NCBI GenBank assembly: GCA_017461505.1 | Contig: JAFTXV010000007.1 | Span: forward strand, 595,185 to 659,184 | Direction: 5' to 3' | DNA from: Paludibacteraceae bacterium | GTDB lineage: Bacteria; Bacteroidota; Bacteroidia; Bacteroidales; Paludibacteraceae | DNA length: 64,000 nt | Shown: positions 5,111-35,485 of the stretch, in pieces | How positions within the stretch are numbered: position 1 is the first letter of the stretch | Layout of the letters: the number at the start of each line of letters is the position of its first letter | Translations under genes and position numbers: made by a program | The notes under the pieces: model-generated | Database searches by the model: none | What the model was told of the DNA's origin: nothing | The model's input: only the letters and a program-made list of their open reading frames with translations

Positions 5111-7342
5111 ATGTATATGAAACGTGGAATATTGATACTATTATCGGTGCTTTTATCTTTTGCTTTTGCACCTTTGGAGAGTTGGATAGTAGAGGGTGCT
5201 TCCTCTGCTGTATCGGCAGCCCCAGTTCAGAAGAAAGCAGCTCAGAAGAAAGCAGCTCAGAAGAAAGCAGCTCAGAAGAAAGCAGCTCAGAAGAAGGCTG
5301 CTCAGAAGAAGGCTGCTCAGAAGAAAGCTGCACAAAAGAAAGCTGCACAAAAGAAAGCTGCACAAAAGAAAACTGCACAGAAGAATGTAGCGTCAAAGAA
5401 GACTACCATTGCTCAGAAGTCGTCCGCATCCAAGCGCGCTGCCACTCCGCAAAAACCCGTTTTGACTCCAGCTCAAGAAGCGGCTGCATATCAAGCACGT
5501 GTGGCTGAAGTGGAGGCACACAACAAGCGTGTAGCCGCCTATCAAACGCGCGATATTGCTCATCGTCTTGGCTTGTGGGGAGGAGTAGGCTATTCGGCTA
5601 TCTTTCCGTCGAATTTTGTGAGTGATGCATTGGCTCCAAATGCCGTTGGTGGAGTAGGAGGCGGCGTAGGTTTGGGGTATCAATTACGCTACAAGAAGTT
5701 CTTGTTGACAACAGGTGTAGAGTTTCAATCGTATAACTCGCTAACTCGCTTGACTGCTCCGATACAGTCATTTGGCGTACAAGAATATGCGACGATGCAA
5801 TACCACTATTTGTTTACCGATATGCAAGACCAGTGGAACACGGGTTATGTGCAGATTCCTCTGCTTGTGGGTATGGAATTGCCCCAGTGGTATTGGCAGG
5901 TGGGTGCAAAAGTGGGTATGAATGTATATACCACATCGGCTATACAAACCTCATTGACCACTTCAATCACTGACCAAGAGTTGATTGATGATTTGGTGAA
6001 CATGCAGAATCACCAATTGGCAACCTCCACTTACGAGATGCAAGATCCTATTGCTCTGCAGCTTAACCCTAATGTGGCACTTGCCGCGGAGGTGGGTATG
6101 TCGCTGGATAAATGGTTGAGGCCTACCGTGAAGAGAGGTCGCCGTATGTCGCCAATGCAGAAGTTTGCGACGAGTTTACACTATCAATTGGCTTTGTTTG
6201 CCGAGTATGGACTGATGAATATATATAATTCTGCTTTAGCAGAAGGGCACACGAATGCTATTCCTGCAGATTTTAGCAGTGTGCTTGGGAAGTCTGTCGA
6301 TACTCCGTTGGCATATACGTCTTCATTGCAGACATCATCGGCTGCAAAAGCGTCGTTGAATCCATTCTTAGTAGGGGTGAAATTGGCTGTTATGTATGAG
6401 TTGCCTCGTCAAGATAAAAAGATGTTGCCCATCCCATTGGAGCCAAAACCTCGTTTAGTGACTAAGGTGACGAATGCGGAGACGGGTCTCGCTTTGGGTA
6501 GTGCACAAGTGACGATTGAAAATATCCAAACGGGTGCTGTGGTGAATAGCACATCCAATAGCAAGGGTGTGGTCATGGCGCGTTTTTCTAAAGCAGATTA
6601 TCGTATATCGGCATCTAAGTTGGGTTATCTGCCATGCGATACTATCACATGGTCGCATATGGCAGACTTGAGTGATACCGTTCGTTTTGCACTGGTTCCA
6701 GAGCCTAAACCAATAGTTTATACCTTGTGTGGCTATGTGCTGGATAAAGCAAATGCTCAGCCGCTTGAGGCTGAACTACGTGTAGTAGGTGCGCAAGATC
6801 AAACTCCACTCTACAATGGTGCAACCAATGAAGAGGGATTATTTGTGTCGAATCTATTGGCAGGAACTTATACGATATATGCTAATAGCATAGGTTATTT
6901 GCCATTGGATACTATGGTGCAATTTGACAAAGATACCCTGTATTTACCACTCGAACCAATCAAAGAGGGTATAAAGGTGAAGATTAATCACTTGTATTTT
7001 GCTACCAATAAGACCGTTATTTTGCCAGAGTCGGAGGAGGCTCTCAACGATTTAGCCAAGTTCTTGCGTGAGAATCCTACCGTGTCTATCCGCATCATAG
7101 GTCATACGGATAATGTGGGCTCTGATGCCGACAATATGCGTTTGTCAATGGGACGTTCTAAAGCGGTGCGCACTGACTTAGTAATGCGTGGAATAGATGC
7201 TAGTCGCATTGAGGCGATTGGTATGGGCGAGACGGCTCCAATCGCTACTAATGATACAGAAGAAGGACGTGCTCAGAACCGCCGTGTAGAATTTGAAATT
7301 ACTGATACACAAGGTAGTGATATTCAACAGATATACGAATAA
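5111..7342 (+). CDS. OmpA-family protein with Lys/Ala repeat, beta-barrel and two carboxypeptidase-regulatory-like domains
   Basis: 743 residues. Signal peptide at 1-~30, then a strongly basic repeat (QKKAA x9 plus QKKTA, residues 40-89) running into a basic Ala/Lys/Ser stretch to about 125. A barrel related to the upstream gene follows (~150-435), then two CarboxypepD_reg-like beta-sandwiches (~448-525 and ~537-620) and a C-terminal OmpA/MotB domain (~625-735) with LYFATNKTVILPES and GHTDNVGSDADN segments. The OmpA domain normally binds peptidoglycan in the periplasm, so the protein should tether outer membrane to cell wall. A basic repeat between signal peptide and barrel is unusual. Gap to the upstream gene 36 bp and to the next 16 bp, so an operon is likely. 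MKRG at 5117 is an alternative start. Confidence 0.85.
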   Translation: MYMKRGILILLSVLLSFAFAPLESWIVEGASSAVSAAPVQKKAAQKKAAQKKAAQKKAAQKKAAQKKAAQKKAAQKKAAQKKAAQKKTAQKNVASKKTTIAQKSSASKRAATPQKPVLTPAQEAAAYQARVAEVEAHNKRVAAYQTRDIAHRLGLWGGVGYSAIFPSNFVSDALAPNAVGGVGGGVGLGYQLRYKKFLLTTGVEFQSYNSLTRLTAPIQSFGVQEYATMQYHYLFTDMQDQWNTGYVQIPLLVGMELPQWYWQVGAKVGMNVYTTSAIQTSLTTSITDQELIDDLVNMQNHQLATSTYEMQDPIALQLNPNVALAAEVGMSLDKWLRPTVKRGRRMSPMQKFATSLHYQLALFAEYGLMNIYNSALAEGHTNAIPADFSSVLGKSVDTPLAYTSSLQTSSAAKASLNPFLVGVKLAVMYELPRQDKKMLPIPLEPKPRLVTKVTNAETGLALGSAQVTIENIQTGAVVNSTSNSKGVVMARFSKADYRISASKLGYLPCDTITWSHMADLSDTVRFALVPEPKPIVYTLCGYVLDKANAQPLEAELRVVGAQDQTPLYNGATNEEGLFVSNLLAGTYTIYANSIGYLPLDTMVQFDKDTLYLPLEPIKEGIKVKINHLYFATNKTVILPESEEALNDLAKFLRENPTVSIRIIGHTDNVGSDADNMRLSMGRSKAVRTDLVMRGIDASRIEAIGMGETAPIATNDTEEGRAQNRRVEFEITDTQGSDIQQIYE
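5228..5377 (+). repeat. 15-bp tandem repeat, 10 units, coding for QKKAA
   Basis: Ten in-frame 15-bp units (consensus CAGAAGAAAGCAGCT) encode nine QKKAA and one QKKTA. Synonymous drift runs left to right: first four units identical, then AAG GCT GCT forms, then CAA-starting forms. This suggests repeated local duplication. Confidence 0.95.
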
Positions 7343-13600: not shown

Positions 13601-13853
13601 CCCAGAGGATTACTCAGAGGTATCTATTGTGCCTACCTTGGTTGAGAAGTCGCAACCGATGCAGATTGTGTCGCCTAATCATCAGTCAATGAATGGTGAG
13701 GCTCGTTGGATGATGTTTAGTGGTGCTACTATTGCTACTCAATCTCTGGTTGATGGTACGGGGTTGGTGGCACCTGCTACAAGTGGATTGTTCCTACTCA
13801 TCCTTCAAGATCAATCAGGAGAACAAACGGTATTGACTATCCAAGTGCGTTAA
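10683..13853 (+). CDS. Large secreted adhesin-like protein with PKD-like domain, paralogue B
   Basis: 1,056 residues from ATG 10683, chosen over an in-frame TTG at 10662 because it gives a normal signal peptide (MKKYLLCMLCMCFVALQMTAQ). It shares the upstream gene's order: N-terminal WNIGSAVSNGG jelly-roll, FN3-like segment, the ASVRLGNWDTGSE block, RWKDWTTVGVNL and a C-terminal Cys repeat (CDSIVTINL, CDSVVVLNL). A PKD-like domain with WDFGDGKPVYEENP (about residues 635-690) is specific to this copy. The end (ATSGLFLLILQDQSGEQ) is a sorting-tail-like strand. Last gene of the run before a strong hairpin. Probably a surface adhesin; function inferred. Confidence 0.75.
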   Translation: MKKYLLCMLCMCFVALQMTAQDSYFMCDFEDEAQNAKWSLVNGSYGVTTANKWNIGSAVSNGGEKSMYMSVDSGRTVSYYNLTSYIITYTDVHLHAGTYDLSFDWRAMGNITENSLDGLYVYWGPVVNAFGDTIKLNSNNSNELSKELQQYLVEVSPGDTLLRGSATWKNCVTTVKTYGVPYRLAFIWMIYGLDVVDPGPSIDNIMILDTKSCPSPTALDVRTEGARIELDWVGNADAYEVKCYSYTSDSWIIQTVYDTTSIAFTNVPEGLCDFYVSAICDEKVKSVPTVRSEYFVYYPVNHCIDYLTLDSTNCYIANEKVGDRGVDKLTWTNFLVNDGYASKASRHTIHYAANEYDPRTCNELRTVPEGELASVRLGNWDTGSEAERVEFKFHVDAKVNPVLVLKYAVVLEKPNPTCLPNPGFLLRVLDERGRLVSDCASADFDFQKAAEADWELCDRNPDTGNITEIRWKDWTTVGVNLADFDGQTLTIQLTTYDCGGGGHYGYAYFTLGCSDGKLSGMTCGVENTQFVAPAGFVYQWYLQNDPDSIVGHEQVLEVLPTDTNHYVVDMMFAQDSSCYFSLVASAQPYQPFAAAKMDYMSVDCQNVVQFTNLSHVIETNQITDSVTHTTKTVDWVEWDFGDGKPVYEENPRRVFDSQGGPIQVKLIAHLATCVDTLVITDTLPAIGTTRDTLSIQQCVDVPYVYSYTASDNSQVDTTLTETGMYDFTLKSKLTGCDSIVTINLLVLDTLWTYIDTLIIKGDTLQVGNQLFTKTGEYKIPLQSEAGCDSVVVLNLTVHDYLVIEALQEYTICHGESSFLFGYAITQGYTKDYSLTFANDLFASVEAGTLEYSNAIDIAIPADAIPNTYDGEVSFIDTIGGNVVVPFQLHILYNQDVVTQRWNDVLAVRNSDYNGGFEFDKYQWYKKATGESDFAPLQGDTLSYLYEPLDPTSAYAVGLVRKGETVEILTCEIYPEDYSEVSIVPTLVEKSQPMQIVSPNHQSMNGEARWMMFSGATIATQSLVDGTGLVAPATSGLFLLILQDQSGEQTVLTIQVR

Positions 13854-13882
13854 TCGTTGGCGCGCCTATCTCAGATTTATCG

Positions 13883-13920
13883 GCAGGCTGCTTAATGGCA
13901 GCCTGCTTTGTGTTATTTTA
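13883..13920 (+). terminator. Terminator of the surface-protein operon
   Basis: GCAGGCTGC (13883-13891), a 6-nt loop and GCAGCCTGC (13898-13906), then TTTGTGTTATTTTA. It shares stem core and tail with the hairpins at 15387 and 20847. Confidence 0.85.
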
Positions 13921-14014
13921 TGGAAAAAATGACAAAAACATATATGAAATTTATGGAAAAAATGACAAAAACATATGTGAATTTTATGGAAAAAGTGACA
14001 AAAGTTTGCATATG
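13920..14014. repeat. Three 33-bp direct repeats upstream of the DUF4143 ATPase gene
   Basis: Units begin at 13920, 13953 and 13986, each starting ATGGAAAAARTGACAAAA followed by an A/T tail with CATATRTG. The third is diverged and runs into the promoter. Their position just upstream of the -33 box is compatible with a regulator-binding array. Confidence 0.85.
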
Positions 14015-14036
14015 TCAAAGATTTTCAGTACTTTTG
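14005..14036 (+). promoter_or_regulatory. Promoter of the DUF4143 ATPase gene
   Basis: TTTG (14005-14008), a 20-nt spacer and TACTTTTG (14029-14036). Start codon lies 17 nt downstream of the -7 box, giving a very short leader. Confidence 0.8.
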
Positions 14037-14052
14037 TGCCCAATTAAATATA

Positions 14053-15381
14053 ATGGATATGCTAGAACGTAAGTTTGCAAACTTCTTAGAGTCGTTTCTA
14101 AGTGAAAATCAGAATAAGATTTTGCTGGTTAATGGTGCAAGACAAATTGGTAAGTCATTTATTATTCGACACATCGGAAGCAAATTATTTCCTAATTTTA
14201 TAGAGATTGATTTGCGTGCAGATAGTGAAAATGAGCAATTATTTTCTGATGTAAGTAGTGTGGATAGTTTTTATCTACAGTTGAGTGCATTTGCAGGTAA
14301 TCGTTTGGGGAACAAACAAGATACGCTAATCTTCTTAGATGAGATACAAGTTTATCCTCGTTTGCTTACCTTACTCAAGTTTCTTAATCAGGACGGCAGG
14401 TTTACCTATATCGCGAGTGGTTCGCAGCTTGGCGTGGCATTGTCGCAAACGCCATCTGTACCATTGGGTAGTGTATTGATTAAGCAAATGTATCCATTGG
14501 ACTTGGAGGAGTTCTTCTGGGCTATGGGGGTTGGTAAGGAGGCGATTGATACGGCTCGATCTTACTTTCACAACCAGCAATCACTGCCAGAAAAGTTACA
14601 TGATAGATACCTAAACTTATTCAAAAGTTATTTATTGACAGGAGGTTTACCAGATGCCGTAAATCAATATGTCAAGGATAAAAATATTCAGCGAATGCGT
14701 GATATCCAATACGATATACATACTCTCTATGGTATTGATGCTTCGCAATACGATCAGCAAAACAGACTGAAGATTCGTCGTGTATATGATCTAATACCAT
14801 CTAATCTTGAAAATAAAAAGAAACGGGTCGTAGTGAAGAAAATTGAGAATAAAATGGGTAAGCAATTTTCAGACTACGAATATGAATTTGATTATTTGGT
14901 AGAATCTGGTATTGCATTGCAGATAGATGCCATCAGTAATCCTCGTTTTCCACTATTGCAATCGGTCAAGAAAACTCTGCTAAAACTCTATTTGAATGAT
15001 GTAGGCATATTGACCGCCTTGTTGTATCAAAACAACATCAATGCGGTTCTGAATGATGAACGAAGTATAAATCTTGGTACTGTATATGAAGCAGTAGTGG
15101 CACAAGAGTTGCATGCGCATGGTTTTGATTTGTATTACTATGATAATAAGCAACATGGTGAGGTTGATTTCTTGATAGATGATTATTCCACCTTATCTAT
15201 AGTACCTTTAGAAATAAAATCAGGCAAAGATTACTACGTTCATAGTGCACTTAATCATTTTGTTTCTAACGAAGAATATGGTATTAATCATGGTATTGTC
15301 TTCTCAAACAGCCGTGAAGTTGAAAAAAAAGGCAAAATCACATATATGCCAATTTATTATATCATGTTTATAGAGCGTTAA
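14053..15381 (+). CDS. AAA-family ATPase with DUF4143 nuclease-like C-terminus
   Basis: 442 residues. Walker A is GARQIGKS (about 28-35), Walker B is LIFLDEIQ (~93-100). The C-terminal third has the PD-(D/E)XK-like signature of DUF4143 proteins: GEVDFLIDD and PLEIKSGKDY. These ATPases are common in Bacteroidota, often in many copies in accessory regions. Their role is unknown, with defence and toxin-like functions discussed. It is a single-gene unit bounded by its own promoter with 33-bp repeats and by a terminator at 15387. A second member lies at 26898-28088 on the other strand. Family assignment is firm, biological role is not. Confidence 0.85.
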   Translation: MDMLERKFANFLESFLSENQNKILLVNGARQIGKSFIIRHIGSKLFPNFIEIDLRADSENEQLFSDVSSVDSFYLQLSAFAGNRLGNKQDTLIFLDEIQVYPRLLTLLKFLNQDGRFTYIASGSQLGVALSQTPSVPLGSVLIKQMYPLDLEEFFWAMGVGKEAIDTARSYFHNQQSLPEKLHDRYLNLFKSYLLTGGLPDAVNQYVKDKNIQRMRDIQYDIHTLYGIDASQYDQQNRLKIRRVYDLIPSNLENKKKRVVVKKIENKMGKQFSDYEYEFDYLVESGIALQIDAISNPRFPLLQSVKKTLLKLYLNDVGILTALLYQNNINAVLNDERSINLGTVYEAVVAQELHAHGFDLYYYDNKQHGEVDFLIDDYSTLSIVPLEIKSGKDYYVHSALNHFVSNEEYGINHGIVFSNSREVEKKGKITYMPIYYIMFIER

Positions 15382-15386
15382 TACCC

Positions 15387-15420
15387 GAAGGCTGCCCAAC
15401 GGCAGCCTTCGTTGTGTTAT
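15387..15420 (+). terminator. Terminator of the DUF4143 ATPase gene
   Basis: GAAGGCTGCC (15387-15396), CAAC loop, GGCAGCCTTC (15401-15410), then GTTGTGTTAT. Almost the same hairpin as at 20847-20871. Confidence 0.85.
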
Positions 15421-15490
15421 AGAGTCTATCGAACGGGGGGGATAGATATGTTGTACAACATATATCGTGCTTTTTTTAGAAAAATGTGCT

Positions 15491-15520
15491 TGTTATGTAA
15501 AAAAAAATAAGTAACTTTGT
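15491..15520 (+). promoter_or_regulatory. Fixed promoter upstream of the invertible susC segment
   Basis: TTG (15491-15493) and TAACTTTG (15513-15520), spacing 19 nt, read rightwards into the invertible segment. They lie outside the inverted repeats (first arm begins at 15556), so transcription direction does not change when the segment flips; only the sequence behind the promoter does. No comparable promoter was found within the segment on either strand. Confidence 0.7.
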
Positions 15521-15549
15521 GCGCTTTTAGGAAGAGAGTGGGGCACGTA

Positions 15550-15744
15550 CTATAGAATTGTACCGTTTGATGTGCCAGCTTCTGCAACGCTAGCGCCAAC
15601 GAGAGGTTCACCATTAGCATCCACCACTTTACCTACAATAGCAATAGGTTCTGCCATAGCAGCGATGCTAACCAACGACATTGCAAATACTGCAAATGTC
15701 ATGAGTAGGCTACGAAAGCCATTCTCTTTGTGTTTGTTCATCAT
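15550..15744 (-). pseudogene. Detached, inverted N-terminal part of susC (signal peptide and start of the regulatory domain)
   Basis: Reading leftward from ATG 15744, this encodes a basic n-region, a hydrophobic core (LLMTFAVFAMSLVSIAAMA), then EPIAIVGKVVDANGEPLVGASV. That is the signal peptide and first strands of the CarboxypepD_reg-like domain that opens SusC proteins. It runs into a stop 3 codons after the sequence TSNGTI. The missing continuation (SNGTITDLDG...) is on the plus strand at 15830. It is therefore the 5' end of the same gene in the opposite orientation, not an independent gene. An in-frame GTG at 15783 also exists, but ATGATG at 15739-15744 gives the normal signal peptide. 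No promoter of the usual type faces this fragment in the present orientation. Confidence 0.85.
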
Positions 15745-15847
15745 AACGTTTGTGTTTTGGTTAATAATGTGTGGGAATTTCACCCACGTTGTTTATATTG
15801 TTGTTGATTGTTTTGGGTCAATTTTGGTAGCATCAAACGGTACGATT
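15556..15847. other. Invertible DNA segment splitting susC
   Basis: The arms are AATTGTACCGTTTGATG (15556-15572) and CATCAAACGGTACGATT (15831-15847), inverted repeats identical at 16 of 17 positions with a perfect 13-bp core. The 258 bp between them hold the susC leader, start codon and first ~58 codons on the minus strand. Recombination within the core would place those codons in frame with the gene body: both arms are read as xCA TCA AAC GGT ACx. The fixed promoter would then lie upstream of a ~130-nt leader. The predicted product of the flipped form is about 1,120 residues, normal for SusC. No recombinase gene is in the window, so the enzyme would act in trans. Confidence 0.9.
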
Positions 15848-18800
15848 ACTGATTTGGATGGTGCATTCGTGCTGACCGTAGAGAAGAACGTAACTCTCCT
15901 CGTATCCTACGTAGGTTACAAGGATCAAGAGGTTCGCGCTCACAAAGACATGGTTGTTATGCTCCGCGAGGACACTCAAGTGCTCGACGAGGTAGTAGCC
16001 ATCGGTTATGGTACGCAAAAGAAGGCGAACCTGACAGGTGCGGTGACAACCGTAGATGTTTCTAAAACTTTGGAATCAAAAACCGAGTCTGATGTGGCAA
16101 AAGCATTGCAAGGTGCTGTGCCTGGTTTGACCATCACCAATGCAACGGGTGATTTGGATGCTGATCCTACCGTCGTTATCCGTGGTATCGGTACTTTGTC
16201 AAACAGCGGTACTTCTACTCCTCTCTACGTAGTGGATGGTGTACCTATGGAGAACCTCAGTTATCTTAACCCTAATGACATTGAGTCTATTAGCGTATTG
16301 AAAGATGCTTCTTCTACCGCTATCTATGGTACTCGTGCTGCTTTTGGTGTGGTATTGGTAACCACCAAGACTGCTAAGACGGCAGAGAAAGTGAGCGTTA
16401 CTTATAACAACAACTTCGCTTGGAGTCGTGCTACTGCAACTCCTGATTACCCAACCGTATATGCTCAAGCTGTGGCTGCAACAGAAGCTAAGGGATATCT
16501 TGGTGAGCGTGCTGAACTCTTTGGTATGTATTTGGATGATATGCCAGTTCCTGTTACAAATGATAAAGGTGAGGTAATTGGTTATGAGGACAGTTTCCAA
16601 GACAAAGCGGCAGCTTGGTTAGAAAGACATGGTGGCAAAGCTGGTTATCGCGAAATGGTGTATGGTGATGACTTTGATGAGTATGGATTCTATGCTGATT
16701 GGGATGTGGCAGGTATCTTCTTCAACGATGCAACTCCTTCACAAAACCACAACCTCTCTGTATCGGGTAACTCAGGTAAGACCAACTACTATATGTCACT
16801 CGGCTATAACCACCAACAAGGTATATTGAACTTCAATCCTGACAAGATGGATAAGTTCAACGCAACTGTTAACCTCTCTACCAAAGTTAACAACTGGTTG
16901 GAAGTAGGTGCTCGCTTCAACATGCAACACCGCAACTATCAATATCCAGAGAACCGTGTAGGTGGCTATTCTAACCTTTGGCGTTGGGGCTCATTCTTTG
17001 GTCCTTGGGGCTATTTTAAAGATCCTGAAGGTCAAGTGTATGATGGTTATACTTTCCTAGGTGGTTTGAAAGAAGCTGGCGACGCTTACAAAAAACGTAT
17101 GAACTTGCGTGCTGGTGGTTTTATCAAGTTGAACCTTGCTAAAGGCTTAACCTTTAATGGTGATTATACCTTTACCTACCGAGCAGGTAAAGAGAAGGCT
17201 ATCGGTATGCCTGCTAAATATCAAGTGGACACATGGTCTCTTAGCTTATTTACGGAAGATTGGTGGAATGGTGCGATAGCTCCATATCCAACAGATAGTT
17301 ATATTACTCAAAAGAACTCTCATTACTACAACCACGTAGCCAATATGTATTTCAACTACAATGGTTCTTGGAGTGGTCACAACCTCAATGTAATGGTAGG
17401 TGCGAATATCGACAAAGACGAGTACGAGTATCTGACTCTCACCCGCAACAACATGCAGAATGTGAATATGCCTGAGATGATTCTTACCTCTGCATATAAG
17501 AGCTATGATCAAGCGCATTATCACAATGGTTCTGTGGGTATCTTCGGTCGTATCAATTACGATTATAAAGGCATCTATTTGTTAGAGTTCAGTGCTCGCG
17601 GTGATGCATCTAGCAAGTTCCCAAGCAACCAACAATGGGGCTTCTTCCCTTCAGGATCTGTAGGTTATCGTATCAGCGAGGAGCCATACTTCCAAGAAGC
17701 TAAGAACTATGTAAGCAACTTAAAGGTACGTGCTTCTTATGGTACTATTGGTAACCAAGAGATTGGTAGCAATATGTTCTTGGAGACAATGGATAAATAT
17801 ACCACTTCAGTAAACTGGATTGGTAGTGGCAATGTGTTGTATGACTATTTTGAACAACCTAAGATGGTATCTCCATACCTTACTTGGGAGACAATTGCTA
17901 CGGCTAACGTGGGTATTGACCTCGGTTTCTTCAACAACGACTTGAATATCAACTTCGACTGGTATCAACGCGATACAAAGGATATGTTGGCTCCAGGTAA
18001 AGAGTTGCCTACTGTACTTGGTACTTCTGCTGCATTTGAGAATGCAGGTTCTCTCCGTACACGTGGTTGGGAGTTGAATATCGACTGGCGTCACGTATTC
18101 CACGAGGCAGGTGACTTGGCTGTACATGCTAATTTCAACTTGGCAGACTACAAAGCTACGATTACCAACTGGGATTCTAACAACCTTATCAATACCAACT
18201 ACACTGGTAAAGAGTATGGTGAAATCTGGGGCTTTGAGTATGACCGTTATTTCACTCCAGAGGATTTCAATGCAGATGGTACATATGCTGAAGGTATTGC
18301 AGATCAAACTCTACTTGCAGTTGATCCTAAATTTGCTTTTGGTCCTGGTGATATCAAGTTCGTTGACCAAGATGGTGACGGCGAGATCAATTGGGGTGAG
18401 GGTACAGTAGAGGATCACGGTGACCTCATAAAGATTGGTAACACCACTCCTCGTTGGCAATACTCATTCCGTCTTGGCGCTGATTGGAAGGGCTTTGACT
18501 TCGACATCTTCTTCCAAGGCGTAGGTAAACGCGATATGTGGAGCACATCTGCCTTCGTGATGCCAATGATGCGTGCTGCCGATATTACTATTTATGCTAA
18601 TCAAACGGATTATATTACTAAGGAAGAAATCGAGGCGGGTAACATCCGTCAAGATGCTGACTATCCACGTATCTTCCCAGGTAATGAGGGTGCTACAGCT
18701 TCTTCTGCTATCATGGACGCAGGTCGCAACAACTATGTGCCACAAGATAGATACCTCATCAATATGGCTTATCTCCGTCTGAAGAACTTGACCGTAGGTT

Positions 18801-19021
18801 ACACCTTGCCACAAAAGTGGACTCGCAAGGCAACCATCGAGAAAGTGCGTATCTACGCTTCATTCAACAACTTGGCTGACCTCGTAAATCATACCGCTCA
18901 ATACGGCTTCGATCCTGAGGTTTCAAGAGGTAAAGAGGCTGCTAACTATGGCTATGGAGCATACGCTCGCACCACGCCTCTCATGCGTTCGTATTCATTC
19001 GGTTTGCAAGTAACACTATAA
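15830..19021 (+). CDS. SusC-like TonB-dependent transporter body, lacking its N-terminus in this orientation
   Basis: About 1,063 codons. It starts inside the CarboxypepD_reg domain (SNGTITDLDGAFVL), continues through VSYVGYKDQEVRAHK and VVAIGYGTQKKANLTGAV, the plug (VVDGVPMENLSYLNPNDIESISVLKD) and the barrel, and ends in a strand-rich C-terminus (SFGLQVTL). SusC proteins import oligosaccharides across the outer membrane with a SusD lid; the next gene is that SusD. As written the gene has no signal peptide. The plus frame stays open leftward to 15572, but that stretch is the antisense of the true N-terminus. An ATG at 15701 in this frame would give a hydrophobic leader, discussed as a finding. 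After inversion the gene is intact. Confidence 0.9.
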   Translation, partial: ASNGTITDLDGAFVLTVEKNVTLLVSYVGYKDQEVRAHKDMVVMLREDTQVLDEVVAIGYGTQKKANLTGAVTTVDVSKTLESKTESDVAKALQGAVPGLTITNATGDLDADPTVVIRGIGTLSNSGTSTPLYVVDGVPMENLSYLNPNDIESISVLKDASSTAIYGTRAAFGVVLVTTKTAKTAEKVSVTYNNNFAWSRATATPDYPTVYAQAVAATEAKGYLGERAELFGMYLDDMPVPVTNDKGEVIGYEDSFQDKAAAWLERHGGKAGYREMVYGDDFDEYGFYADWDVAGIFFNDATPSQNHNLSVSGNSGKTNYYMSLGYNHQQGILNFNPDKMDKFNATVNLSTKVNNWLEVGARFNMQHRNYQYPENRVGGYSNLWRWGSFFGPWGYFKDPEGQVYDGYTFLGGLKEAGDAYKKRMNLRAGGFIKLNLAKGLTFNGDYTFTYRAGKEKAIGMPAKYQVDTWSLSLFTEDWWNGAIAPYPTDSYITQKNSHYYNHVANMYFNYNGSWSGHNLNVMVGANIDKDEYEYLTLTRNNMQNVNMPEMILTSAYKSYDQAHYHNGSVGIFGRINYDYKGIYLLEFSARGDASSKFPSNQQWGFFPSGSVGYRISEEPYFQEAKNYVSNLKVRASYGTIGNQEIGSNMFLETMDKYTTSVNWIGSGNVLYDYFEQPKMVSPYLTWETIATANVGIDLGFFNNDLNINFDWYQRDTKDMLAPGKELPTVLGTSAAFENAGSLRTRGWELNIDWRHVFHEAGDLAVHANFNLADYKATITNWDSNNLINTNYTGKEYGEIWGFEYDRYFTPEDFNADGTYAEGIADQTLLAVDPKFAFGPGDIKFVDQDGDGEINWGEGTVEDHGDLIKIGNTTPRWQYSFRLGADWKGFDFDIFFQGVGKRDMWSTSAFVMPMMRAADITIYANQTDYITKEEIEAGNIRQDADYPRIFPGNEGATASSAIMDAGRNNYVPQDRYLINMAYLRLKNLTVGYTLPQKWTRKATIEKVRIYASFNNLADLVNHTAQYGFDPEVSRGKEAANYGYGAYARTTPLMRSYSFGLQVTL

Positions 19022-19093
19022 TTAATGTTTAACACTATCGATGAATAAATATTAATTATTAATTATTAACTATTAACTAAATTGAATACAATT
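19022..19093 (+). other. A/T-rich spacer between susC and susD
   Basis: The 72 bp are mostly ATTAATTATTAACTATTAACT-type low-complexity sequence, also seen at 21548-21583. No promoter or hairpin was seen, so the pair is likely cotranscribed. Confidence 0.6.
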
Positions 19094-20788
19094 ATGAAAA
19101 AGATATTTTTAAGTTTGATGGCTGGTATGGCGCTCTTCACAAGTTGCGACTTGTTGAACAATGACCCATACGACACATTTACCAAAGAAAACTTCTTTGC
19201 CAATGAGACCAATGTAGAAATGTATTGCAACTATTTCTATAGCGAATGGAAAGGTTATGGTAATAATGGTACTTACGGCGTATTCTATTTCCCTACTTTG
19301 AACGATAACCAAGCTGTAACGGGTATTACTCCATGGGATTTCAAGAATGTATCTGCTACGGATGCTACATGGGACGCATCTTATGAAGAGGTACGCCGTG
19401 CTAACATCTTGCTAGAGCATATTAATGAAGCTGACTTGACGGATGAAAGCCGTGCATATTACACATCGCTTGGATGCCTCTATCGTGGTTGGCAACACTT
19501 CTGCGTGGTTCGCAAGTTTGGTGATTGCTACTGGGTAAACAAAGAGTTGACCGTGGACGATGCTACAATCCTCTATGGCAAACGTCATGACCGCAATCTC
19601 GTGATGGATAATGTTCTCGCAGATATCAATTATGCTGTAGCTAATATGGGTGATATGTATGCTGATTCTCGTACAGCTTACAACGTACACGTAGCCAACG
19701 CTATTAAGGCACAAGTATGCTTGTTCGAGGGTACTTATGCTAAATATCACAAGAATGATGCAGCACGTGCTGAGAAGTACTTGAAAGAGGCTAAAAAAGC
19801 TGCTGAAGCTATCATGGGTAACGAGATGTTTGCGCTCACCCCAGGTGCTGAGGGTTATCGTGCTAACTACAACTCCCTTGACCTTGCTGGCAACACCGAG
19901 ATGATCATGTACAAGAAGTATCTGGAAGAAGCTAAACTTCGCCATGCTACTCAAGACTACTGCTGCGGTTCTACTCCTACCAACGGTATGAGCAAATCTG
20001 CGTTCAATGCATATTTGATGAAGGATGGAACTCTTCCAACTCCAGGTTCTGACAAGGGTGTACTTGGTACCGATGGTTATGATAAAGGTAAACCAGTTAT
20101 CTACGCTCTTCTTGAAGCTCGTGACCCACGTTTGGCTGAGCAAATCGACGGCTATCTCTGCTACGTAGGTAACAACCGCGCTCGTTATGAGGGTGTTCCT
20201 GGACAAGAAGGAGCTGCTGAGAATACGGTTACTACTGGTTACGGTATCTTGAAGTTCGATGAGCCAGAAACTCCTGCTTCATTGCGTCAATCTACTAATG
20301 GTAACGTAACCGACTGCCCAATCTTCTGGTTGGCTGAAGTAATCCTTAACCACGCAGAGGCATGTGCTGAATTAGGTTTGGATGCAGAGGCAACCGCTTC
20401 TATCAATAAGCTTCGCGCTCGTGCTGGTATGCCTAACCTTGTGTTGCAAGGCGACCCAGCTAATAATATGGGCGTTAGTGACTTGATTTGGGAGGTTCGT
20501 CGTGAGCGTCGCGTAGAGTTGATGTTTGACAACAACGACCGCTACTGGTCACTTATCCGTTGGCACCAGTTGGATAAACTAGATACCAAGCAGTATCCAG
20601 ATCAAACTAAGGGTGCTTGGATTGATGCTTCATGGCCAGGTGCTAACCAAGTGAAGCTCGATGCTGAGGGATATATTGATCTTAATGATACGTATGTTCG
20701 TGAGTTCGATGATAAGCATTACCTCGCTCCTATCCCATCTGGTCAAATCTCATTGAATGCAGAGATTGGTCAAAACCCAGGTTGGTAA
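19094..20788 (+). CDS. SusD-like surface glycan-binding lipoprotein, partner of the invertible SusC
   Basis: 564 residues from ATG 19094 (an in-frame TTG at 19082 is less likely). The signal ends in a lipobox (LFTSC, Cys about residue 19), followed by the usual DLLNNDPYDTFTKENFF start of SusD proteins. The C-terminal part has the typical FWLAEVILNHAEACAELG segment, a DLIWEVRRERRVELMFDNNDRYW block and a final ISLNAEIGQNPGW. SusD forms the lid on SusC and binds the glycan at the surface. It follows susC by 72 bp. No hydrolase is adjacent, so the substrate of this pair is unknown. If susC is off, this lipoprotein may be made without its transporter. Confidence 0.95.
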   Translation: MKKIFLSLMAGMALFTSCDLLNNDPYDTFTKENFFANETNVEMYCNYFYSEWKGYGNNGTYGVFYFPTLNDNQAVTGITPWDFKNVSATDATWDASYEEVRRANILLEHINEADLTDESRAYYTSLGCLYRGWQHFCVVRKFGDCYWVNKELTVDDATILYGKRHDRNLVMDNVLADINYAVANMGDMYADSRTAYNVHVANAIKAQVCLFEGTYAKYHKNDAARAEKYLKEAKKAAEAIMGNEMFALTPGAEGYRANYNSLDLAGNTEMIMYKKYLEEAKLRHATQDYCCGSTPTNGMSKSAFNAYLMKDGTLPTPGSDKGVLGTDGYDKGKPVIYALLEARDPRLAEQIDGYLCYVGNNRARYEGVPGQEGAAENTVTTGYGILKFDEPETPASLRQSTNGNVTDCPIFWLAEVILNHAEACAELGLDAEATASINKLRARAGMPNLVLQGDPANNMGVSDLIWEVRRERRVELMFDNNDRYWSLIRWHQLDKLDTKQYPDQTKGAWIDASWPGANQVKLDAEGYIDLNDTYVREFDDKHYLAPIPSGQISLNAEIGQNPGW

Positions 20789-21207: not shown

Positions 21208-21543
21208 TTACTCTTCGTTTTTGAGTTTATTGAAGACAAACGCCCAGAGGGTTTTGTACTTGGTTTGTTGAGCAAACTCGGCACGGTCGGTGTTGATATA
21301 GGTTGGGTCTTCCATACGGACACGAGTAGCGGCACACAACTCTCCGAAACGTTGGTTCCATTGGCGTTGGTTGGCCGTGAGTTTGATTTTCTTGCTTGGG
21401 TCGCGGTAGGCGGTGTAGTTAGGGTTGCGGATCATGTCCTCGTTGTTGGTTACGGCTTGGCGCACGTTGTACACCACACAGTGTTTCTTAGTCAGCTTGC
21501 CGCTGACGGATTTGATAGGGTCAATGTAAGTGATTTTAGCCAT
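21208..21543 (-). CDS. Small conserved-looking protein, unknown function
   Basis: 111 residues, basic, no signal peptide: MAKITYIDPIKSVSGKLTK start. It contains a GKLTKKHCVVYNVRQ segment and ends in TKYKTLWAFVFNKLKNEE. The C-terminal K.L.(A/G)(F/Y)(V/I)F pattern recurs in the proteins at 21587-21886 and 24181-24381, suggesting a small-protein family. Gap to the downstream small gene is 2 bp. Possibly DNA- or RNA-associated given its charge, but that is speculation. Confidence 0.6.
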   Translation of the reverse strand: MAKITYIDPIKSVSGKLTKKHCVVYNVRQAVTNNEDMIRNPNYTAYRDPSKKIKLTANQRQWNQRFGELCAATRVRMEDPTYINTDRAEFAQQTKYKTLWAFVFNKLKNEE

Positions 21544-21547
21544 AGTT

Positions 21548-21583
21548 AAGGTAGTTAATAGTTAATAATTAATAATTAATATC
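21548..21583 (-). other. A/T-rich spacer with TTAATAGTTAATAATTAATA-type sequence
   Basis: A low-complexity run similar to the susC-susD spacer at 19040-19080 separates two small genes. Confidence 0.5.
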
Positions 21584-21586
21584 TTT

Positions 21587-21886
21587 TTAGAGTTTTGCGT
21601 ACTCTTGTGCGAAGATGTAGCCGTTGAGCGACTTGTACTTTCCAGGGGACTTGCGGAAGTCCTCACGGTAAGTAGCTATCTGCTCTTCGCTGAGCGCTGC
21701 TACATTGGCGCGTGCAGTGGCGAACTTCTCGCGGTTAGCGACTTGTTTCTCGGTGGGCGGAACGGTGATTTCACCGATTAGGCCCGTGTACTGGGTGCCG
21801 TACTTCTCTGCGGCGTAAAACTTGGATTTGCTGTGGAACTTACCCGACATCTTGTCGATAAGCTCCATGGGTTTAAATTTACTCAT
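21587..21886 (-). CDS. Small conserved-looking protein, unknown function
   Basis: 99 residues, charged, no signal peptide. It starts MSKFKPMELIDKMSGKFH, has a central segment TGLIGEITVPPTEKQVANRE, and ends GKYKSLNGYIFAQEYAKL. Its C-terminal K.L.GYIF pattern and a similar relation of a Lys/Arg-rich body to a terminal aromatic strand link it to the 21208 and 24181 proteins. It is first in the minus-strand trio. No Bacteroidota-type promoter was found upstream; the sequence there is a dense GGTTAGAGGTTAAAGG repeat. Confidence 0.6.
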   Translation of the reverse strand: MSKFKPMELIDKMSGKFHSKSKFYAAEKYGTQYTGLIGEITVPPTEKQVANREKFATARANVAALSEEQIATYREDFRKSPGKYKSLNGYIFAQEYAKL

Positions 21887-28311: not shown

Positions 28312-30306
28312 CTAATTCTGTTTCTCTACTCGGATGGCGAATCCTCCACCTGGAGCCATGTTGATGGTCAGCGGGTCGGAATGGCGATGGACGGATAGCG
28401 TGTCAATCGCAGTAGCGTATGGATTGGTTTGCCAATCTGCCTGGGCTGCATCTTGGTAGATGATAGTTTGGTAGTCGCCCTTGCCGAGGAAGTCTGCCCA
28501 TGTGATGGTGGTAGAACGTGCTTGTTCGTCGGTGACGGCACCGATATACCAGTTGTCGGTATTACGTGCTTGGCGAGCCATGACGATATAGTCGCCTATC
28601 TGACCGTCGAGCATGATAGAACGCTCCCAATCGCAAGGTACGCAGCGGATAAATTCAAACTCCTCGGGGTGCAACATATAGTTCTCTGGCAAGTCGCACG
28701 CCATTTGCAGCGGCGAATAGAGGACAACAAACAGACCCAATTGGTTGGCGAGCGTAGCATGCACGCGGGTGTTAGGATATACCGGATTATCAAAATTGAA
28801 CACGCCAGGTGTATAGTCGGCCGGTCCTGCCAACATGCGTGTGAAGGGCAATACCGTGACATGCTCGCACGGACTACCTCCATCCTGACTCCATGCGTTC
28901 CACTCCTGTCCGCGAATACCCTCTTGCGTCATGAGGTTGGGGTAGGTGCGTTGCAATCCCGTAGGCATCACAGGCTCGTGGTTATCAATGCTGACCTGAT
29001 AGGTAGCAGCGGTCTCAATCACCTTGCGATAGTGGCGTACACCAGACTGCGAGCGGTTGTACTGTATGCCATCGATAGTCTGTATGGTAGGTGCTACATA
29101 GCCCGTCTTCACGGCATGCATACCGTGCTGCTGCATATAGGCAAAAGCGGTATCTAGCTGATGCTGGTAAGAGGCTGCGTTGCCCTGTGTCTCGTGGTGG
29201 AAGATGATCTGCACCCCGCGTTGATGGGCATAGTTGGTGAGGTACTCTAGATCATAATCTGAGTAAGGGGTGGTGAAAGAGAACTGCGCCACTACGTCTG
29301 GCTTTCCCCAGTCTTCCCAACCCGTGTTCCAACCTTCTGCTAAGACGCCACCAAAGCCATTATCGGCTGCAAAATCGATATAGCGTTTCATATTCTCGGT
29401 GGTAGCGCCGTGAATAGGACCTTGGTGCCAGGTCATCGTTTCCAGGTGCATTCCCCACCATATACCGATAAACTTCATAGGTTTGATCCACGATGTATCC
29501 TCAATCTTACATGGCTCGTTGAGGTTGAGTAGCATGCGCGACTCCACCAGTCCGCTCAGCTCGTTGCTGAGTACCATCATGCGCCATGGTGTAGCGAAAG
29601 GCGTGGTGAGATATGCAGCATCGCCCGTGCTCCAAGGAGTGAGATAGGTGCGTAGTTGACCATCGGCATAGTAATAGTTTTGCGCAGGATAGTCGTAGAG
29701 CGCAGCCTCGTGCATCCATGCATATAGGTTATCTCCCCATTGCAGGGTGATTGGCGAACAAACGGTGTCGATCTCGCTCATAGGGGCTGGTTGCCACAAT
29801 GCCTCGTAGTATTCTGTTCTCCAAGGGATAGACCATACGGTAGGCTCATTAGCAAATTGATAGCTGGTGCACTCGTTGATGAGCACAGTGTCTGCCATCT
29901 CAGGCAGCATATAGCGCATGGCCCATCCGTCGTTGAAGACGCGGAAGCATACCTGCATCTCGATACCAGAGCGATGGCGCAAGAAGAGCAAGAGTTGATT
30001 GTAGTGATTGACGATATAGTGATCTTCGCCCCAGGTGGTTTCCCAAGTCTCGTTGTGCTGGTCACGTTGTGTGCGGAGCAGCGTGAAACCTTCTGAAAGG
30101 TCGGTTTGCGCCAATTGCAAACCTAGTTGGGAAGGGCAGATGATGTCTTGTCCATTCATCGACACTTGATACATAGGTCGGCCCATACTATCCACACTGC
30201 ATGCTACGGATAGCTTGCCATCGGGGGAGGATACAGAGGTCTGTGGCTCGCATGCGCAAAATAGCATGCAGCATACTATACCCAATATAATTTGACTTTT
30301 TTTCAT
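28312..30306 (-). CDS. susB: Glycoside hydrolase family 97 alpha-glucosidase-like lipoprotein (SusB-like)
   Basis: 664 residues. Signal peptide with a Cys-rich end (MLFCACEPQ, lipobox). The GH97 N-terminal start SSPDGKLSVACSVDSMGRPMY is clear (quoted SSPDGKLSVACSVD). The catalytic barrel has GGVLAEGWNTGWEDW, IIFHHETQGNAASY, AVKTGYV, SIDNHEPVMPTGLQRTYPN and MTQEGIRGQEWN. The Glu residues in the NHEP and QEGIRGQEW segments match those used for catalysis and calcium binding in inverting SusB-type enzymes. It should cut alpha-linked glucose from oligosaccharides in the periplasm or at the membrane. Third gene after susC and susD, 25 bp behind susD, so it belongs to that operon. Confidence 0.92.
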   Translation of the reverse strand: MKKSQIILGIVCCMLFCACEPQTSVSSPDGKLSVACSVDSMGRPMYQVSMNGQDIICPSQLGLQLAQTDLSEGFTLLRTQRDQHNETWETTWGEDHYIVNHYNQLLLFLRHRSGIEMQVCFRVFNDGWAMRYMLPEMADTVLINECTSYQFANEPTVWSIPWRTEYYEALWQPAPMSEIDTVCSPITLQWGDNLYAWMHEAALYDYPAQNYYYADGQLRTYLTPWSTGDAAYLTTPFATPWRMMVLSNELSGLVESRMLLNLNEPCKIEDTSWIKPMKFIGIWWGMHLETMTWHQGPIHGATTENMKRYIDFAADNGFGGVLAEGWNTGWEDWGKPDVVAQFSFTTPYSDYDLEYLTNYAHQRGVQIIFHHETQGNAASYQHQLDTAFAYMQQHGMHAVKTGYVAPTIQTIDGIQYNRSQSGVRHYRKVIETAATYQVSIDNHEPVMPTGLQRTYPNLMTQEGIRGQEWNAWSQDGGSPCEHVTVLPFTRMLAGPADYTPGVFNFDNPVYPNTRVHATLANQLGLFVVLYSPLQMACDLPENYMLHPEEFEFIRCVPCDWERSIMLDGQIGDYIVMARQARNTDNWYIGAVTDEQARSTTITWADFLGKGDYQTIIYQDAAQADWQTNPYATAIDTLSVHRHSDPLTINMAPGGGFAIRVEKQN

Positions 30307-30331
30307 ACTTCTCTAAACTCTAAACACTAAA

Positions 30332-32197
30332 CTAAATCCCCGGATATCCCTTCGACTGGGTGATATTGCCATTGCGCTCCAATTCCAATTGTGGGATAGG
30401 TTGCACGTAGCTAGGTTCGCCTTTCCATGTGATAGGTCCGTGGGATGTTTTCTCGTAATAAGCGGCCTCCGAGTCGCCGTTTCTGAATCGACGAATATCC
30501 ATCCACCATTGTCCCTCGGCGAAGAGTTCGGCCCATCGTTCGTATTTGAGTGGATCGTTGGCAAGAGGATCGTTGTCATAATAGGCACGTGTGCGGTCGC
30601 TGAGGGACTTATAGTCGTACTCAGAAGCGCTATTGGGATTCAGTCCATATGCACGGCGGTGTACCTTATTGATATACTCCAATGCAGTAGTAGGGTCGGA
30701 ATCGGCTAGCAATTCGGCATAGAGCAGGTAGATATCTGCTAGTCGCACGATATAGAGGTTGCAGTTGCTCGATTCGTTGAGTCCGTAAGGGGGCGCTCCC
30801 ATCTCCGTACCGCGGGTGTTGGTGTATTTGCGGTGTTGCCAGCCAAGTACCTCTGGGCGGTTGTTGCACTCCGACGAGCGGTCATAGACAGTCACACGAC
30901 CTTTGCCGTCGATGTATTCGTCCACATATGGTTGCCCTGCACAGAGCATGAGGCGTGGATCTACCTTCGACTTATCGCGCTTGAGTGCTAATGCTTCGGC
31001 GCGGTAGTTAGGAGTGGCAATCATGTATGGATAATTGTCGAGTGAGCGGGTGCCACTATAGTTGTAGGATGGGTTGAAGGTGAGGCGTGGCACGGTATCG
31101 CCATAGAAATTGGCAAAACCAAAGCGCGCGATATTTTTGTCATGCACATAGTTGTTGCCCCATTGCGACGACTTCTTGGAGATGATGATATCATTCTCCT
31201 GCGTGAGTGGATCCACCTTATCTTCTTTTCCCTTGCGGAACCGAATATCTAGATCCACATACCATGGTGCGTACACCATTGGCATACCCGATCCTGTGGT
31301 ATAGCCTTCCCAAGGTCCGTCTTGGTTGGGGTTGGATGTCATGGTAAGTTCGTAGAGGGATTCGGCGTTGTGTTCGTTGGCTTCGTTGCCATAGAACATG
31401 TCGGCGTAGATATCGTAAGCAACCAGTTGCTTGCCACTGTGGAGGATGATGTCCTCCATGAGTGTCTTGGCCAGTGACTTATTCTCTGGGAAGAGATACA
31501 GGGACTGCATATACACCTTTGCCAGCAATCCCTTGGCCGCCCATTCGGTAGCGCGGAAGGTGTCATCGTTGTATCCTTCGAGTAGATCAATGGCTTTTTT
31601 GAGGTCATTGATAACAAACTGCCATGTATCTTTGACAGTAGCGCGCTCTAACTTGAGCGCTTCCACATCGGATATGATGCGGTCGATGATAGGGAAGCCC
31701 AACGCATCGGCATCGAGTTCGAAGAAGATTTGCGCGTGCCAGTATGCCAAAGCACGATTGAAGTAGCATTGGCCGAGGGCGTAATCCAGCTCTTCTTGCT
31801 CATTCTCCTTGCCGTAGTTTTGGCGGTAATAGGCGATACCATCAATACCTGTAGAAGCCAGTTTCATCCACTTACAGAGGTCGGTATAGGTGGTGGTGAT
31901 ATAGCGCGAATCGATACTCGTATAGTTGTCTTGTGAGGTGGCACGCTCGTCGTAGGAACCATAGAGGTCGGTGGTATGGTCGTAGAGCCATACACCCATA
32001 GGGAACCAATAGAAGGCGTACATACCGATGCTATGGCTCTGCGCATATGCGGAGGTTACCAGCTGATCCACCTGCGACATGGTGGCAGGGAAATTATCGG
32101 TGGATAGCGTCTGAGGATTGGATATGTCAAAAAAGTCGGAGCAACTGGTCAGGGCTACGAGTGCTGCGAATGATAGACTAACAATATTCTTTTTCAT
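30332..32197 (-). CDS. susD: SusD-like surface glycan-binding lipoprotein
   Basis: 621 residues, with lipobox LVALTSC (Cys about 19) followed by SDFFDISNPQTLSTDNFPA, a standard SusD opening. The middle part has the helical TPR-like scaffold. The C-terminus has the LADIYLLYAELLADSDP segment, a PLKYERWAELFAEGQWWMDIRRF block and ends in NITQSKGYPGI. It forms the lid of the SusC transporter encoded 24 bp upstream. Together with GH97 downstream it points to an alpha-glucan or malto-oligosaccharide target. The name follows the locus layout; binding specificity cannot be read from sequence. Confidence 0.95.
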   Translation of the reverse strand: MKKNIVSLSFAALVALTSCSDFFDISNPQTLSTDNFPATMSQVDQLVTSAYAQSHSIGMYAFYWFPMGVWLYDHTTDLYGSYDERATSQDNYTSIDSRYITTTYTDLCKWMKLASTGIDGIAYYRQNYGKENEQEELDYALGQCYFNRALAYWHAQIFFELDADALGFPIIDRIISDVEALKLERATVKDTWQFVINDLKKAIDLLEGYNDDTFRATEWAAKGLLAKVYMQSLYLFPENKSLAKTLMEDIILHSGKQLVAYDIYADMFYGNEANEHNAESLYELTMTSNPNQDGPWEGYTTGSGMPMVYAPWYVDLDIRFRKGKEDKVDPLTQENDIIISKKSSQWGNNYVHDKNIARFGFANFYGDTVPRLTFNPSYNYSGTRSLDNYPYMIATPNYRAEALALKRDKSKVDPRLMLCAGQPYVDEYIDGKGRVTVYDRSSECNNRPEVLGWQHRKYTNTRGTEMGAPPYGLNESSNCNLYIVRLADIYLLYAELLADSDPTTALEYINKVHRRAYGLNPNSASEYDYKSLSDRTRAYYDNDPLANDPLKYERWAELFAEGQWWMDIRRFRNGDSEAAYYEKTSHGPITWKGEPSYVQPIPQLELERNGNITQSKGYPGI

Positions 32198-32221
32198 GAT
32201 TGTATGTATATTAGAAGTTTG

Positions 32222-35200: not shown

Positions 35201-35422
35201 ATACGATATCTGGATCTTCTTGCCGTCTTCCACATCCAGGAAGAATTGACCATCTATGTCGGTCACAGTACCATTGGAGGTGGACACTTCTACGATGGTG
35301 GCTCCGATAATAGGATTACCCGCAGCGTCGGATACTGTACCTTCGATGGGTTTAGCATAGACCTGCCAACCCAAAATGAGCAGCAATAGGGTGCAGAGTG
35401 CTCTGTGCAGTGTGTGATTCAT
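32222..35422 (-). CDS. susC: SusC-like TonB-dependent outer-membrane transporter
   Basis: 1,066 residues from ATG 35422, which opens a proper signal peptide (MNHTLHRALCTLLLLILGW). The CarboxypepD_reg domain (IEGTVSDAAGNPIIGATIVE, SNGTVTDIDGQFFL) is followed by the VVVIGYGTQRRSDVTGSI TonB-box-linked signature. The plug (VVDGVAQSTGFNFNMRDVES) and the barrel end in FSFGLDLSF. It imports oligosaccharides using TonB energy. The segment that is inverted in the other SusC gene is in normal orientation here, and its DNA at the SNGTVTD codons lacks the invertible repeat. Preceded by a hairpin and a small secreted-protein gene; no own promoter seen, so it is likely read from 36366-36397. Confidence 0.95.
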   Translation of the reverse strand: MNHTLHRALCTLLLLILGWQVYAKPIEGTVSDAAGNPIIGATIVEVSTSNGTVTDIDGQFFLDVEDGKKIQISYVGYRMETITIQSDKTIYPVVLSEDTELLDDVVVIGYGTQRRSDVTGSISSVSAQDIADFSSKSLAESLQGMAAGVTVTKGSGSPGESADILIRGAGSLNGMAPLYVVDGVAQSTGFNFNMRDVESIEVLKDAGSAAIYGSKAAGGVILITTKKGKSERTQVDLNARVGWRNITSNIQLLGTEDWVRAHEVWGTTSQLDKLGVSSIDELPNTNWMDVMFGTGIEQEYNVSVSGGGEKTKMFLSISYLDEKGTYMDTRAKRYSFRTNLDHKIGKHVTIGESVYGAMTSSNPSTNSSIYNHTVPFRTVPVAEVFDENGDYAQTPMSVGSGPNFAGLEAAYHDIQDNNYHLNAQAYLNVEFIPGLTWHTTGSVTLGAYSKRFFTEYKDFGPVQVGIDGGQLDSYAGTNLRLMFNSVLTYDAQWGDHSFKAMVGTEWWKFDGYDLTVNSYGFSIPIAQSIALAAAGATKDASDAIPQERRGSAFARINYDYQGKYLLTANFRADASDRFVNKHRWGFFPSVNVGWRLSEESWIKDNASNWLSNAKIRASWGILGNDNIPQYMYSSTYSLSGVSHAFDNSAIGQTGAWIAILGNEDLKWEEVNQTDIGVDLGFFKNRLTFTYDYYNRQTRDMLYRGSLCLTSGMSYYFSSDDPANTVPVYFNAGLVQNQGHEITLQWQDKRREVQYSVGVNMSFNQNMVKQVGDKPGASIIDKGLDAAWPLLARTEDNHPMSMFYGYEVLGIFQNQAQVDEYNQYALEQWRKNNPNHPYGYAENGQPLNADGKEIGIYYQKANTGIGDLIYDDNGQGMVNAASRKYIGNPWPLMTLGINASVAYKGFDVSMVFSGAFGFDIMNLVKPYTHMFMSDNTTAAIFTTSCFGKDNTTVTENPRVGYLNEEENVIGDGAANRNYSTVSGYMVERGDYLKLKNLSIGYTLPQKYSRKAKMERLRIYFSAQNLFTITKYSGVDPEIGGNSLMYNIDHQNRYLPSRLFSFGLDLSF

Positions 35423-35485
35423 GCGATAAGGGATATATGAGTTTGACAATACGCGCGGGTTGCCCGCACATAGAATAAATAGGAT

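Follow-up and report, generated by a model that had tools for sequence, protein, structure and literature searches.

The window, i.e. the whole stretch of DNA analysed (64,000 nucleotides; contig C4:595185-659184 of G000, a MAG of 1.74 Mb that is 82% complete), contains a susC gene whose beginning has been turned around. The region 15556-15847 was confirmed, at the level of the sequence, as part of one susC gene in inverted orientation. The best reading of this arrangement, and a likely one, is that of a phase-variable SusC protein caught in the OFF orientation of a reversible switch. Its reversibility is deduced, because the opposite orientation of the locus was not seen; viral contigs searched for the ON junction pattern and for the leader pattern contained neither. 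SusC/SusD transporters are the main nutrient gates of gut Bacteroidales and belong to their exposed surface proteins. The arrangement probably represents a type of on/off switch familiar from related bacteria, but here with the start of the gene flipped instead of the promoter. The closest named relatives of the window genome (labelled G000) are Paludibacteraceae and Bacteroidales MAGs, including those from water-buffalo caecum and water-deer rectum; G-numbers denote the genus genomes compared, one genome per species.

Anatomy of the inverted susC segment

The inverted segment (15556-15847; 292 bp) holds, backwards, the 5'UTR, the start codon, the signal peptide, and the first codons of susC, 58 of which lie outside the arm. 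It is bounded by a left arm (AATTGTACCGTTTGATG; 15556-15572), located 36 bp past the promoter box and in the 5'UTR when ON, and a right arm (CATCAAACGGTACGATT; 15831-15847), located inside the coding region at the motif TSNGT(I). These arms, found exactly where the initial annotation had placed its inverted-repeat boundaries, are 17 bp each, are 16/17 identical, and have 258 nt between them. An arm match of 16/17 was reached in one out of 1500 dinucleotide shuffles of 15450-15950; as this test ignores that the breakpoints coincide with the repeat, the coincidence itself is the stronger argument.

The reversed susC codons 1-58 (minus strand, 15571-15744) start from the ATG at 15744 and encode MMNKHKENGFRSLLMTFAVFAMSLVSIAAMAEPIAIVGKVVDANGEPLVGASVAEAGTSNGTI, including a signal peptide that, like its cleavage site (..AMA|E), was recognised by eye, with a stop soon after. 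The headless body (plus strand, 15831-19021) comprises the end of a CarboxypepD_reg-like domain, the Plug domain, and the TonB-dependent barrel (Pfam), so that a SusC start on the minus strand and its remainder on the plus strand, as proposed earlier, were both recovered. SusC identity was given by the TIGR04056 profile (816.1 bits; cut-off 368.25), with the Plug and barrel domains present. When the segment was flipped in silico, a single open frame of 1120 amino acids was obtained, running from ATG to stop without an internal stop and carrying the signal peptide, which agrees with the expectation that one inversion rebuilds a SusC of about 1,120 codons. After the flip, leader and body meet at TSNGTITD, within the TSNGTITDLDG stretch of the CarboxypepD_reg-like domain. 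Either side of crossover keeps the protein, because the arms differ only at the third position of a Thr codon (ACA/ACG). Of the description of the locus as an intragenic on/off switch, the part by which an inversion at these arms detaches, and is able to rebuild, one SusC start is well supported, but the segment is not strictly intragenic: as the ON-state arms lie in the 5'UTR and in the coding region, respectively, it straddles UTR and gene.

An artefact of assembly, whereby the assembler placed the leader backwards, has to be considered for any MAG, but is regarded as very improbable. The breakpoints lie exactly on the 16/17 inverted repeat, and 48 kb separate the site from the contig end. 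Moreover, 17 bp is less than the k-mers that assemblers usually use, so that a wrong join would in itself point to a mixed population.

In its present orientation, the body is preceded by an open frame (plus strand, 15572-19021; GTG start; 1149 amino acids) with in-frame ATG codons at 15665, 15701, and 15767. The body is therefore not closed by stops but only lacks a start and signal peptide of its own, and the frame might possibly give a truncated or mis-targeted SusC. A switch between two products, the present orientation making an alternative SusC from the GTG at 15572 or the ATG at 15701, could be based on this frame, which is without stops from past 15512 on through the body and has in-frame ATG codons, and on the positively charged, hydrophobic N-terminus (MSRLRKPFSLCLFIITFVFWLIMCG) that results from the start at 15701. 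Yet, the unflipped loci L051 and L054 also have a long open frame antisense to the leader, which thus seems due to composition; no evident signal cleavage site was found by eye, and the frame contains a terminator-like hairpin. This explanation is hardly credible.

Promoter, hairpins, and the proposed OFF state

A Bacteroides-type promoter (TTG-N19-TAACTTTG; plus strand, 15490-15519) is located outside the segment and is aimed into it. Its TAnnTTTG box at 15512-15519 is the only one on either strand of 15380-16000. Because the promoter is outside, a flip moves the 5'UTR, the start codon, and the signal peptide, but not the promoter itself. Upstream of the latter, a gene with AAA_14/DUF4143 (14053-15381) is followed at its 3' side by an intrinsic-terminator-like hairpin (plus strand, 15386-15411; 11 pairs, 8 of them GC), which precedes the susC promoter. 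A second terminator-like hairpin (plus strand, 15769-15789; 7 pairs, T-rich tail) lies within the segment, faces the promoter now, and is a 5'UTR hairpin when ON. These were the two sites retrieved by a terminator consensus scan of 15300-16000, against a shuffle mean of 0.6. The hairpin at 15769-15789 (GTGGGTGARATTCCCAC) is conserved, in opposite sense, in the susC 5'UTRs of L050, L051, and L054. No Rfam-type RNA element was found in 13800-16500 at E values up to 1. Downstream, susD (SusD_RagB, SusD-like_3; plus strand, 19094-20788) has its own start codon outside the inverted segment, and both the susC body and susD are open.

The mechanism proposed consists of a site-specific inversion at the 17-bp repeats, by which the 292-bp leader segment of the susC/susD operon would be turned. 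In the ON orientation, the fixed promoter would drive full SusC plus SusD. In the OFF orientation, as present here, it would transcribe the leader antisense and run into the terminator-like hairpin. Any SusC made in the OFF state would lack a signal peptide, so that the transporter would be off, and SusD is predicted to be possibly lowered by termination. The inversion would be reversible and, with less certainty, may be carried out in trans by a serine invertase of the Mpi family.

The deletion of a divergent partner was considered as a source of the backwards leader, and was set aside, as a promoter and not a second susC body lies left of the left arm.

Gene order in relatives and paralogues

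Leader and body are in forward order in six susC genes of four genomes, namely those on contigs C6 and C7 of G014, those of G081 and G115, and two copies in G123. The same is true for the paralogue on contig C16 of the window's own genome. A nucleotide search of 61 genomes, 28 of which had some match, yielded the two forward loci of G014, and a protein search of 178 genus genomes, 176 of which had a match, added the remaining four, all forward. The same broken order in related genomes, which would have pointed to a gene fixed in a dead state, was thus encountered in none of these. Among the matches listed, none but that of the window starts past query residue 35 (residue 58 in the window). The loci L050, L051, and L054 were taken as G123:C1, G081:C12, and G115:C25, respectively, and L052 and L053 as G014:C7 and G014:C6.

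At no more than one mismatch and anywhere in the genome, the arm sequence was found 32 times in 27 of the 178 genus genomes (once in 24 of these), against one match for a reversed-pattern control. Both arm strands faced each other at one locus in G000 alone; G110 has both, on different contigs. This restriction to one out of 178 genomes fits a single, unrepeated inversion at a repeat present by chance or as a near match, which would have broken the gene and left a young dead gene instead of a switch. The lack of an adjoining invertase gene, a half-site spacer that is off by one from the Mpi-like form, and the occurrence of a degenerate relative (G011, with a split susC and a 108-amino-acid invertase fragment) point in the same direction. 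However, a repeat of 17 bp is short for RecA-dependent exchange, the body and susD are open, the leader is without clear decay (its 57 codons being compatible with a recent loss), and the left arm sits at the promoter distance where relatives carry an invertase-type element. On balance, such a one-off event is unlikely. Past the same promoter box, the AAACGNCC element is located at 37 bp in L051, 51 bp in both L054 and L050A, and 44 bp in the C16 paralogue, compared with 36 bp for the window arm; in a MAFFT alignment of the leaders, the left arm of the window falls outside the columns of AAACGNCC, so the likeness is one of promoter distance alone.

Windowed identity separated the genes into type one (L052, L051, and L050A) and type two (L053, L054, L050B, and the window gene). 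Over codons 1-57, the paired susC genes within G014 and those within G123 are 99-100% identical at the nucleotide level, whereas beyond codon 300 the same pairs are 71-81% identical in every window of comparison. Such near-identical leaders on dissimilar bodies are a sign of exchange at the leader. Furthermore, contigs C6 and C7 of G014 both stop in the 5'UTR directly before the leader, which might reflect shared or mixed sequence. Both findings would suit a shufflon, in which the leader is one of several swappable starts for more than one SusC body, comparable to Tsr0667 of B. fragilis, and partners may be missing from a MAG that is 82% complete. Against this, one other leader-like copy only (C16; intact, 80%) was found in the assembled genome, a single one of its six susC genes over the cut-off is headless (that of the window), and exact arms occur here only. 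Nothing in the assembled 82% of the genome pointed to shuffling among several susC bodies, and a shufflon is considered quite improbable. Upstream of the five other susC genes and of three partial matches in G000, no inverted arm copy was found. On the reverse complement of contig C7 of G014 (L031), positions 6539-6590 repeat the final ~50 bp of susD in inverted form (blastn), more than 1 kb past the susC/susD match.

Conservation of the leader

For the phase-variable reading, as well as for a dead gene, the state of the backwards leader is relevant, and dN/dS was calculated over its 57 codons for nine pairs. For the window leader, dN/dS values were 0.047/0.358 and 0.047/0.401 against C6 and C7 of G014, respectively, 0.051/0.464 against G081, 0.088/1.037 against G115, and 0.214/0.366, which is not low, against G123. 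The unflipped pairs gave 0.035/0.260 (G014 C6 and G081), 0.076/1.111 (G014 C6 and G115), 0.097/0.648 (G081 and G115), and 0.199/0.431 (G081 and G123). Compared with G081, codons 58-180 of the window gene showed a dN of 0.018 and a dS of 0.483, so that the leader (0.051/0.464) is less constrained than this part. The backwards leader thus shows no clear decay, its dN/dS being within the range of the unflipped pairs; as 57 codons only were compared, this argues against an old decay but not against a recent loss.

Invertases and their sites

The relatives display several arrangements of susC genes and invertases, whose switches are readings of anatomy. In G123 (L050:4380-6030), two divergent susC genes stand back to back around an invertase gene of the Mpi family that is flanked by AATCGGTCGTT and AACGACCGATT. 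Between the two susC starts, two TAnnTTTG boxes occur, both toward one susC and none toward the other, and one of them sits right where the invertase gene begins; this locus looks like a promoter flip-flop between the two SusC types. In G081 (L051:5415-5653), a promoter box is located before susC between the arms TAAAATCGGTCGTTTGTTTGAC and GTCAAACAAACGGCCGTTTTTA (22 bp, 2 mismatches), which is likely a promoter inverton. G115 possesses a single susC with an adjoining Mpi-family invertase gene. The split susC of G011, with its invertase fragment, is an example of decay. An invertase match at an E value of 1e-30 was present in 110 of the 178 genus genomes; G014, with its two such susC genes, had no match at this threshold.

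Concerning the origin of the window's arrangement, the source may have been an ancestral Mpi-type flip-flop, as kept in a relative, in which a promoter serves a divergent pair of SusC genes; the promoter-proximal site would now have as its partner a similar stretch within the coding region. A specific form of the switch is put forward tentatively and with considerable doubt: an Mpi-type site past a fixed promoter would be paired with a look-alike in the conserved TSNGT motif, so that one flip would remove the start codon and signal peptide and turn the 5'UTR hairpin into a terminator, the whole being derived from a divergent-SusC flip-flop.

A search of the whole genome for a tyrosine or serine recombinase had been suggested by the initial annotation, and G000 encodes one tyrosine recombinase (~447 kb from the segment) and three serine recombinases, but no invertase gene adjoins the inverted segment. 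Two of the serine recombinases pass the cut-off of 272 bits of NF009949, representing the Mpi family, namely those on contigs C13 (319.4 bits) and C9 (304.1 bits); the one on contig C19 is under it (218.1 bits). The C9 protein is 79% identical to the only match found in G081, and no susC was present in the 14 kb surrounding its gene. This orphan invertase is the first candidate for an enzyme that would act in trans.

The C13 invertase was set aside as a dedicated enzyme, as its contig ends on GAGCGATTTTGTTCAGTTGCA, a sequence that accompanies restriction-modification pieces in G120. In the latter genome, an invertase 100% identical to that of C13 was retrieved, GAGCGATTTTGTTCAGTTGCA is one arm of a repeat pair, and this pair brackets genes whose products have Eco57I methylase and TaqI_C specificity domains. 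Hence, judging from this neighbourhood, the C13 invertase probably belongs to a restriction-modification shufflon, and it could still act in trans on the susC segment. The arrangement of an Mpi-family invertase beside inverted repeats around such genes is represented by L036:1492-2135 (the end of G000:C13) and L145:14-2396 (G120), and in six of the eight best matches (G000, G120, G035, G106, G188, and G067) the invertase is at most ~300 bp from a contig end.

The half-sites of the window arms read AAACG-GTA-CGATT (10/10) and AAACG-GTA-CAATT (9/10), and those of the relatives AAACG-AC-CGATT and AAACG-GC-CGTTT. The spacer is thus 3 bp in the window arms versus 2 bp in the relatives (AAACG-N2-CGWTT); with a spacer of 2 bp, the arms score 7 and 8 out of 10. 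In a background of 200,000 17-mers, 10/10 occurred in 0.003% and at least 9 in 0.055%, values to be read with the arms not being independent and the test having been chosen post hoc. The resemblance to the sites of the relatives may serve as a lead.

Further copies of the repeat, a search for which had been suggested too, did not turn up: the 13-base core CATCAAACGGTAC has two exact copies in the assembled genome, i.e. both arms, and no third one. At no more than two mismatches, it occurred at 47 places versus 59 for a reversed-pattern control, indicating no repeat family. The 120 bases surrounding a one-mismatch core match at C9:180236 were, by eye, unlike a SusC start. The canonical site AAACGRCCGWTT had no exact match in G000 and 15 matches with one mismatch, versus 73 in the control. 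No promoter inverton of the AAACGRCCGWTT type was recognised in G000 among the places listed, part of whose surroundings was inspected.

Comparison with known inversion systems

In B. fragilis, Mpi is described as inverting 13 regions (PMC4747536). The window shares with the Mpi-type promoter invertons of Bacteroides polysaccharide loci the short inverted repeats, the surface-protein operon, and the Bacteroides-type promoter; in addition, Mpi-family invertases occur in the window genome and, in relatives, next to the same susC. It differs in that the promoter is outside and the coding start inside the segment, and in that the site spacer is unlike that of the relatives. Tsr0667 of B. fragilis is reported to cause an inversion affecting SusC/SusD, of the shufflon type with multiple inversions (PMC4747536, PMC11852207). 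Inversion touches SusC/SusD in both cases, but here there is one body and one leader, with no second partner in the assembled genome, and the only tyrosine recombinase found in the window genome is ~447 kb off. For cwpV of Clostridioides difficile, the promoter is stated to be upstream of and outside the inverted segment, and a terminator has been proposed in the OFF transcript (PMC2784873). The promoter found here likewise precedes the segment without being part of it, and the counterpart of the OFF terminator would be 15769-15789, a terminator-like pattern by consensus scan only. In contrast, the cwpV segment is without promoter or coding region, whereas that of the window holds the start codon and signal peptide.

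Partly intergenic invertons have reportedly been recognised as a class by Chanin and colleagues. With the intragenic and partly intergenic invertons (Chanin et al. 2024; Milman et al. 2023), the window has in common a putatively invertible segment that overlaps a coding region. Published accounts further include within-gene inversions in Bacteroidales (PMC12632263), intragenic and SusC/SusD-linked invertible regions in Bacteroidales (PMC10939037), inverton groups in a defined community (PMC11892184), shufflons (PMC11852207), and a review on phase variation (PMC11868660). A limited literature search found neither a susC start-codon inversion nor inversions in Paludibacteraceae, and absence from print is not claimed.

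Flipping the start of the protein instead of the promoter would leave the promoter engaged, and a gene switched in this way is likely to be annotated as truncated. The genus would also offer a natural series, consisting of a flip-flop pair, a promoter inverton, and a leader inverton, in which the entry of invertase sites into coding regions may be followed.

Other features of the window

An AT-rich inverted repeat of 45 nt (87%) flanks susD at 19044-19088 and 21543-21587. Finally, a second SusC/SusD pair is located on the minus strand beside a GH97 gene (28312-35449); it looks like an ordinary glycan-use cluster.
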